Shown here: one piece after another, positions 7-355 of the stretch | Layout: each line of letters opens with the position of its first letter | Position numbering within the stretch: position 1 is the stretch's first letter | Source of the DNA: Longimicrobiales bacterium | GTDB lineage: Bacteria > Gemmatimonadota > Gemmatimonadetes > Longimicrobiales > RSA9 | Assembly: GCA_035764935.1 (NCBI GenBank) | Contig: DASTYK010000093.1 | Coordinates: forward strand, 1 to 58,649 | Length of the DNA stretch: 58,649 nucleotides | Direction of reading: 5' to 3' | Made by a program: the position numbers and the translations under genes | The notes under the pieces: model-generated | Told to the model about the DNA's origin: nothing | What the model saw: only the letters and a program-made list of their open reading frames with translations | Database searches by the model: none

Positions 7-40
7 GAATCCCCACAGCGGCTGACCGTTGTGGGGATTC
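7..40 (-). terminator. Strong hairpin downstream of tRNA-Val
   Basis: An 11-bp perfect inverted repeat (7-17 with 30-40) is extended inward by four more pairs around a CTGA tetraloop. It begins 11 nt past the 3' end of tRNA-Val on the minus strand. No T-tract follows within the window, so it may be a processing or stabilising hairpin rather than a classical intrinsic terminator. Confidence 0.6.
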
Positions 41-110: not shown

Positions 111-125
<15 letters not shown>

Positions 126-355
126 TCGACTGACTGTGCCCTGCGGTTCCAGCGACCAACGCACCAGTACTGTCCCAACCTGCGAAGTCGCCGAAGGCAA
201 CTGAGCTATGCGACCTCACCAACCTGTGCCCTGCGGTTCCGGCGACCAACGCACCAGTACTGTCCCAACCTGCGAAGTCGCCGAAGGCAACTGAGCTATG
301 CGACCTCGACTGACTGTGCCCTGCGGTGCCAGCGACCAACGCGCCGTCCCTGCGT
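111..355. repeat. 90-bp tandem repeat carrying 5' fragments of tRNA-Val
   Basis: The block starting CTGAGCTATGCGACC occurs at 111, 201 and 291, exactly 90 bp apart. Two units are full length and nearly identical; the third decays after about 343, apparently through small deletions. Read on the minus strand, each unit holds the first 18 nt of tRNA-Val (acceptor 5' strand plus the start of the D-arm) preceded by the same leader; only the copy at 125 continues into a real tRNA. The array fills the spacer between tRNA-Glu and tRNA-Val. Origin by tandem duplication is inference. Confidence 0.93.

Follow-up and report, generated by a model that had tools for sequence, protein, structure and literature searches.

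The tRNA-Val array at the left end of the window, by which we mean the whole stretch of 58,649 nucleotides analysed here, is one case of a recurrent, apparently undescribed tRNA leader element. The element consists of a copy of a tRNA's own nucleotides 1–18 (the stub), a hairpin, a copy of the leader of the same tRNA and then the complete tRNA. Leaders of tRNAs are usually regarded as featureless. Two readings of the stubs are testable in culturable carriers, e.g. Shewanella and Pseudoalteromonas: a new cis-acting element that serves the maturation of tRNAs, or a clear record of slippage and template switching reshaping tRNA operons.

The window corresponds to contig C93 of a draft genome (G000) that comprises 195 contigs and 3.83 Mb. 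A tRNA pair lies on the minus strand at the left end of the contig, with tRNA-Glu(CTC) at 433–361 as its first gene and tRNA-Val(CAC) at 125–52 as its second, both identified by ARAGORN and Rfam RF00005; a promoter scan placed a promoter-like site upstream of tRNA-Glu (491–464, minus strand). Tandem Repeats Finder reported an array of period 90 spanning 108–342. Nucleotides 1–18 of tRNA-Val, GGTCGCATAGCTCAGTTG, were found on the minus strand at 305–288, 215–198 and 125–108, and a tRNA continues from the last of these sites only, as the earlier note had claimed. Read along the minus strand, an incomplete copy of the leader module, the first of the array (306–345, from repeat comparison), precedes stub 1, an exact copy of tRNA-Val nucleotides 1–18 (288–305), which is followed by hairpin core 1, CCTTCGGCGACTTCGC (272–287), delimited by pattern searches, unit folds and invariant columns. 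Together with the AGTTG of the stub, this core is predicted to be able to fold as AGTTGCC-TTC-GGCGACT. Stub 2, likewise an exact copy (198–215), and hairpin core 2, of the same sequence as core 1 (182–197, from pattern searches and invariant columns), come next, and the spacer or leader of unit 2 (126–181) runs up to the true 5′ end of tRNA-Val, the sole complete copy (52–125), which carries the D-box AGCTCAGTTGG. A GC-rich stem-loop, AATCCCCACAACGGTCAGCCGCTGTGGGGATT, seen in the sequence and in the precursor fold downstream of tRNA-Val (9–40, minus strand), is likely the transcript end; it has no T run and was not flagged by the terminator scan. Scanning the tRNA strand inside the array revealed neither a sigma-70 promoter nor a T-run terminator.

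The earlier note had described a 90-bp unit repeated exactly at 111, 201 and 291. The period holds and the exactness does not: units 111–200 and 201–290 are identical at 84 of 90 positions and differ at 6, and the copy from 291 is incomplete, departing from the two full units at 6 and 12 of 60 positions. Exact identity between units is confined to a 66-nt stretch made up of stub, hairpin and adjoining sequence. The same note was right that the acceptor 3′ strand TGCGACC occurs once at the Val locus and that the repeats create misleading open reading frames, which we found at 96–398 on the plus strand and 103–369 on the minus strand.

Positions 1–63 of the window form an exact 63-base overlap with contig C143 (L039:1–63), which spans the 3′ end of tRNA-Val and the stem-loop, and the assembly break (the C93/C143 junction) falls at the repeat-rich Glu/Val tRNA pair. 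Given this overlap at the contig end (base 1) and a longest internal exact repeat of 66 nt, a short-read assembler may have mis-sized the array, and its exact copy number is uncertain. Stubs as such are not a contig-end artefact, since others of the same type lie inside contigs C133 and C71. More generally, stubs may break short-read contigs, and spurious repeat reading frames do arise from them.

We looked upstream of each tRNA in the genome for a copy of its first 18 nt, using 50 tRNA genes gathered by search after removal of one duplicate entry. Six of the 50, on three contigs, are preceded at 90–115 nt by a stub that copies the gene's own 5′ end: Val, Phe, Ala, two Gly-GCC and Gly-CCC. Exact 18-nt stubs lie 94 nt upstream of Phe, 91 nt upstream of Ala-GGC, and 93 and 92 nt upstream of the Gly-GCC genes on C133 and C71, respectively; Gly-CCC has a variant stub with 16 exact nucleotides, 115 nt upstream. 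The sequence CCTKCGGCGACTTCGC follows all five full 18-nt stubs, and the core CCTTCGGCGACTTCGC follows the full-length stubs, in a CCTGCGG version on C71. A one-off slippage at Val is ruled out by the stubs at the five other tRNA genes, which the earlier note had overlooked. A generic interspersed hairpin is likewise ruled out, since the core is confined to stubs genome-wide: allowing up to 2 mismatches, the 18-mer core has 7 sites in 3.83 Mb, every one of them at a stub. Stubs occur at 6 of the 10 genes with the exact D-box AGCTCAGTTGG and at 0 of the 40 other tRNA genes (Fisher p=1.3e-5). At all six genes, the acceptor-strand part of the stub agrees with its own tRNA. Val, Phe and Gly-C71 still show a leader copied along with the stub; the leader copies of Ala and Gly-C133 have drifted to chance-level similarity, and their stubs still match 18/18.

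Of 395 genomes in the phylum, 2 contain the core when up to 3 mismatches are allowed, the window's own and G011, which belongs to the same family and another genus. A gapped pattern, defined as a stub without tRNA continuation followed 60–90 nt further by a real D-box, gave 5 matches in G000 and 0 in the 394 other genomes. In the syntenic Met-Phe spacer of G011, two stubs with a shorter period than in G000 lie ahead of tRNA-Phe. Genes adjoining this locus share about 74% protein and about 77% DNA identity with G000 over their best-aligned stretches, and another protein of the window has 76% identity in G011, similar to relatives without stubs. Aligning eight units gave the 27-nt block TAGCTCAGTTGCCTTCGGCGACTTCGC an identity of 98.5% from locus to locus and of 99.4% from one genus to the other, compared with 33–52% for the 30-nt flanks, and at the Phe locus the blocks of G000 and G011 agree at 54/54 positions. 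The earlier note had named relatives of highly variable copy number with no conserved sequence as part of what would speak against its reading. Array presence and copy number do differ between relatives, most of which have no array, and the syntenic Phe locus of G011 nevertheless keeps the block. The Glu-Val spacers of two relatives (L044, L048) hold other repeated hairpins of the form GGCTCGC...GCTCGCAAG, and this spacer seems prone to repeat growth, since different hairpin repeats fill it in these relatives.

To look beyond the phylum, we scanned public contigs of about 85,000 species with AGCTCAGYTGH...AGCTCAGYTGG, which matched at least 118 stretches. Some matches were false and were removed: neighbouring tRNA genes in Saccharibacteria and Bacteroidetes, and Psychrobacter D-boxes that lack an acceptor strand. 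Filtering left at least 59–61 distinct stub–tRNA pairs, six from the window's family and at least about 55 from other phyla; carriers among the matches listed include Shewanella, Pseudoalteromonas, Paraglaciecola, Gastranaerophilales, Saccharibacteria, Bacteroidetes and a deltaproteobacterium. The break at nucleotide 18 is partly imposed, because the pattern fixed nucleotides 9–18; nucleotides 1–8 and the flank were unconstrained, and pairs matching at fewer than 7 of 9 positions there were set aside as chance boxes. Among the matches listed, stub identity is about 0.3 far upstream and 0.57–0.77 in the few bases nearest the mature start, and it rises from 0.70 at −1 to 0.98 at mature nucleotide 1. 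Upstream of 433 tRNA genes in the collected loci, a set enriched for stubs by the way the loci were fetched, the head 9-mer occurs 76 times and a reversed-head control 0 times. The exact core was absent from the contigs of 84,980 species and from viral contigs, scans that possibly left out the window's own genome and its close relatives.

Several of these loci have layouts of their own. Shewanella carassii (L128:2045–3125) carries six tandem copies of stub plus tRNA-Gly(GCC) with period 198, so that the stub leader lies inside the unit. In Cytophagales tRNA-Thr (L095, L142, L168), CGGTTCGACGTTTCGA-like sequence comes after the stub, and the tRNA copy then resumes as far as the anticodon; the layout looks like that of a duplicated tRNA whose D-loop has received a hairpin. 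Many Psychrobacter have a conserved block, AAACTTAAGAGCTCAGTTGATGTTGAATAAATTGC, 50 nt upstream of tRNA-Val(TAC) (L084, L093, L099, L103, L105), in which the D-box 10-mer is present and the acceptor strand absent.

The explanation that we favour, with a confidence just short of even, is a D-box-guided duplication of leader and tRNA 5′ end whose product was then retained as a constrained leader hairpin. The duplication most likely was local and arose through slippage during replication, or through template switching, at the D-box AGCTCAGTTG that the genes share. The hairpin would have spread among tRNA genes through the 10-nt homology of AGCTCAGTTG, each gene supplying its own leader and acceptor strand. 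Local duplication is favoured because it fits stub heads that match their own gene, leaders that are duplicated and stubs that are restricted to one D-box, and a leader duplicated with the stub, as is visible at Val, Phe and Gly-C71, is what it predicts. Stub and core are predicted to be able to fold as AGTTGCC-UUC-GGCGACU, in a stem that is longer by GUAGC/GCUAC in G011; the 5′ arm is the AGTTG of the stub D-box, and the 3′ arm repeats it imperfectly in inverted orientation. Template switching, which has been suggested as a way for RNA hairpins to arise and persist (PMC8794818), is a plausible agent. As in those cases, an inverted copy of an adjacent stretch yields a hairpin at an RNA gene, whereas here leader and tRNA 5′ end are also duplicated in direct orientation, and at several genes, and template switching is a proposed origin. 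G011 carries GGCGACTTCGCTAC, an imperfect inverted copy of GTAGCTCAGTTGCC.

Once installed, the 27-nt block would have been retained by constraint. We infer that this constraint most likely is that of a pre-tRNA leader hairpin that separates the stub from the real tRNA or masks it, and that would be lost on RNase P maturation. Constraint is preferred over pure neutrality chiefly because the 3′ arm of the core, which is not templated in the tRNA, is conserved between genera amid randomised flanks. Two further results speak for the favoured explanation: stub leaders across phyla exceed dinucleotide shuffles in structure, and stub identity rises sharply at mature nucleotide 1. Against a constrained hairpin, the leaders of the Val locus show no structure beyond that of shuffled sequences (z +0.05 and +0.83), the hairpin has no covariation support, since its pairs hardly vary, and equilibrium folding indicated no protection of the real tRNA by the hairpin. 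The element is also dispensable, because relatives as close as G011 (75–77% protein identity) have a Phe gene without a stub, and the exact core is known from two genomes, of which G011 is a draft with 5% contamination.

The strongest rival to the constrained hairpin is a neutral array, a serious possibility although we incline against it. Slippage would have made a partial tandem duplication, the copies some 90 nt apart would be kept identical by repeated slippage or gene conversion, the core would be homogenised between loci, and none of it would have a function. Short repeats side by side slip readily, and the tandem period of 90, the varying presence and copy number among relatives and the homology dependence seen in the D-box restriction all agree with such an origin. 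So do the degenerate pseudo-tRNA remnants that follow the stub in other lineages, where similarity extends past nucleotide 18 (z 11.9 in L082 and 8.8 in L168); a whole-tRNA pseudogene is not what we see in G000, which has no similarity beyond that point (z −0.6 to 1.3). Neutrality alone, on the other hand, does not readily account for a core 3′ arm without tRNA template that is identical in two genera, for stubs at 18/18 beside the decayed leader copies of Ala and Gly-C133, or for an identity step exactly at mature nucleotide 1. The earlier note had offered neutral slippage as its alternative; with the 27-nt block conserved in another genus between randomised flanks, and with intact stubs beside decayed leaders, slippage may belong to the account and is insufficient by itself.

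Going further than a hairpin of one family, 5′-stub leaders might form a widespread, undescribed class of cis-acting RNAs, often with antisense to the D-arm, that governs, in unrelated bacteria, how individual tRNAs fold and are matured by RNase P, a proposal that we regard as rather doubtful. As a class the leaders are structured: among the matches listed, stub leaders across phyla had a mean z of −2.0 against dinucleotide shuffles, with 33 of 60 below −2. Some are antisense to the region of the real D-arm, about 20 of 59 at p<0.05 and 14 of 59 at p<0.01 among the matches listed, most commonly in Gastranaerophilales; such antisense is absent or imperfect in the window's genome. In that order, Arg, Val and Lys stub leaders (L071, L118, L129, L140, L152, L171, L176) have long antisense to the real D-arm or anticodon stem, a design common to several of its tRNAs.

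A related proposal, which we judge improbable, is a folding switch or decoy, in which the acceptor strand of the stub would pair with the tRNA 3′ strand to give an alternatively folded precursor on which RNase P processing is delayed or diverted. The stub is a copy of its own acceptor strand, whose sole obvious RNA partner is the 3′ strand of that tRNA, and at equilibrium the stub was favoured over the real 5′ strand for the acceptor 3′ strand in 47 of 59 precursors among the matches listed. In the precursors with D-arm antisense, this pairing brought a predicted gain of 6–14 kcal/mol. The D-arm antisense of some leaders speaks for a switch, and its absence or imperfection in the window's genome against one. 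A selected alternative fold was striking at first, and the shuffled-leader control gave the same result: the stub won on average at 0.85 with shuffled leaders versus 0.76 with natural ones. As shuffled leaders equal or exceed natural ones, there is no sign of selection for strand competition. Such competition had been suggested in the earlier note, together with folding of the whole precursor as a check; it is thermodynamically possible, yet the predicted fold of the full 440-nt Val precursor retains the real tRNA-Val, and the stub is favoured in a single-unit model.

A small mobile cassette, REP- or MITE-like and inserting at tRNA nucleotide 18/19, would explain one core at several loci, a common insertion point and a patchy distribution, and is nonetheless very unlikely. 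It is disfavoured because a moving cassette would import the acceptor strand of its donor, whereas all six stubs and real heads match their own gene; in addition, the core never occurs away from tRNA stubs, and the units contain no plausible gene. Least credible of all are attachment-site remnants of integrative elements. The usual attachment fragment is a tRNA 3′ part next to an island. Fragments adjoining tRNA genes are often attachment sites (PMC9897764), and partial or non-canonical tRNA sequence is known beside other features, as attR fragments and pseudo-tRNAs (PMC9897764, PMC3399842), but here 5′ fragments specific to their own gene recur every 90 nt with no element between the copies, at six genes on three contigs, and share a hairpin core.

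Among other known systems, excised transcribed spacers of tRNAs can act as RNAs, as in sponges of the 3′ETS-leuZ type. A stub leader would similarly be a spacer RNA released during tRNA maturation, whereas its feature is a 5′ tRNA stub. The literature that we searched, in which subscription journals were thinly covered and an older account may exist, held no matching description of repeated tRNA 5′ ends or of stub leaders in the tRNA operons of bacteria; tRNA-like pseudogenes have reportedly been found in a tRNA cluster of Photobacterium phosphoreum. An Rfam search detected only tRNA in the window; for 15 related loci it gave only tRNA and a single unrelated sRNA of Bacteroidetes. There was no RtT match and no other known family. 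In the tyrT repeats of E. coli, the source of RtT RNA (Rfam RF00391), about 19 nt of the tRNA 3′ end are tandemly repeated downstream, at one locus and within the tRNA transcript. The stubs resemble them as tandem repeats beside a tRNA gene that hold a piece of the tRNA, and differ in that they copy the 5′ end, lie upstream, occur at six tRNA genes and share a common hairpin.
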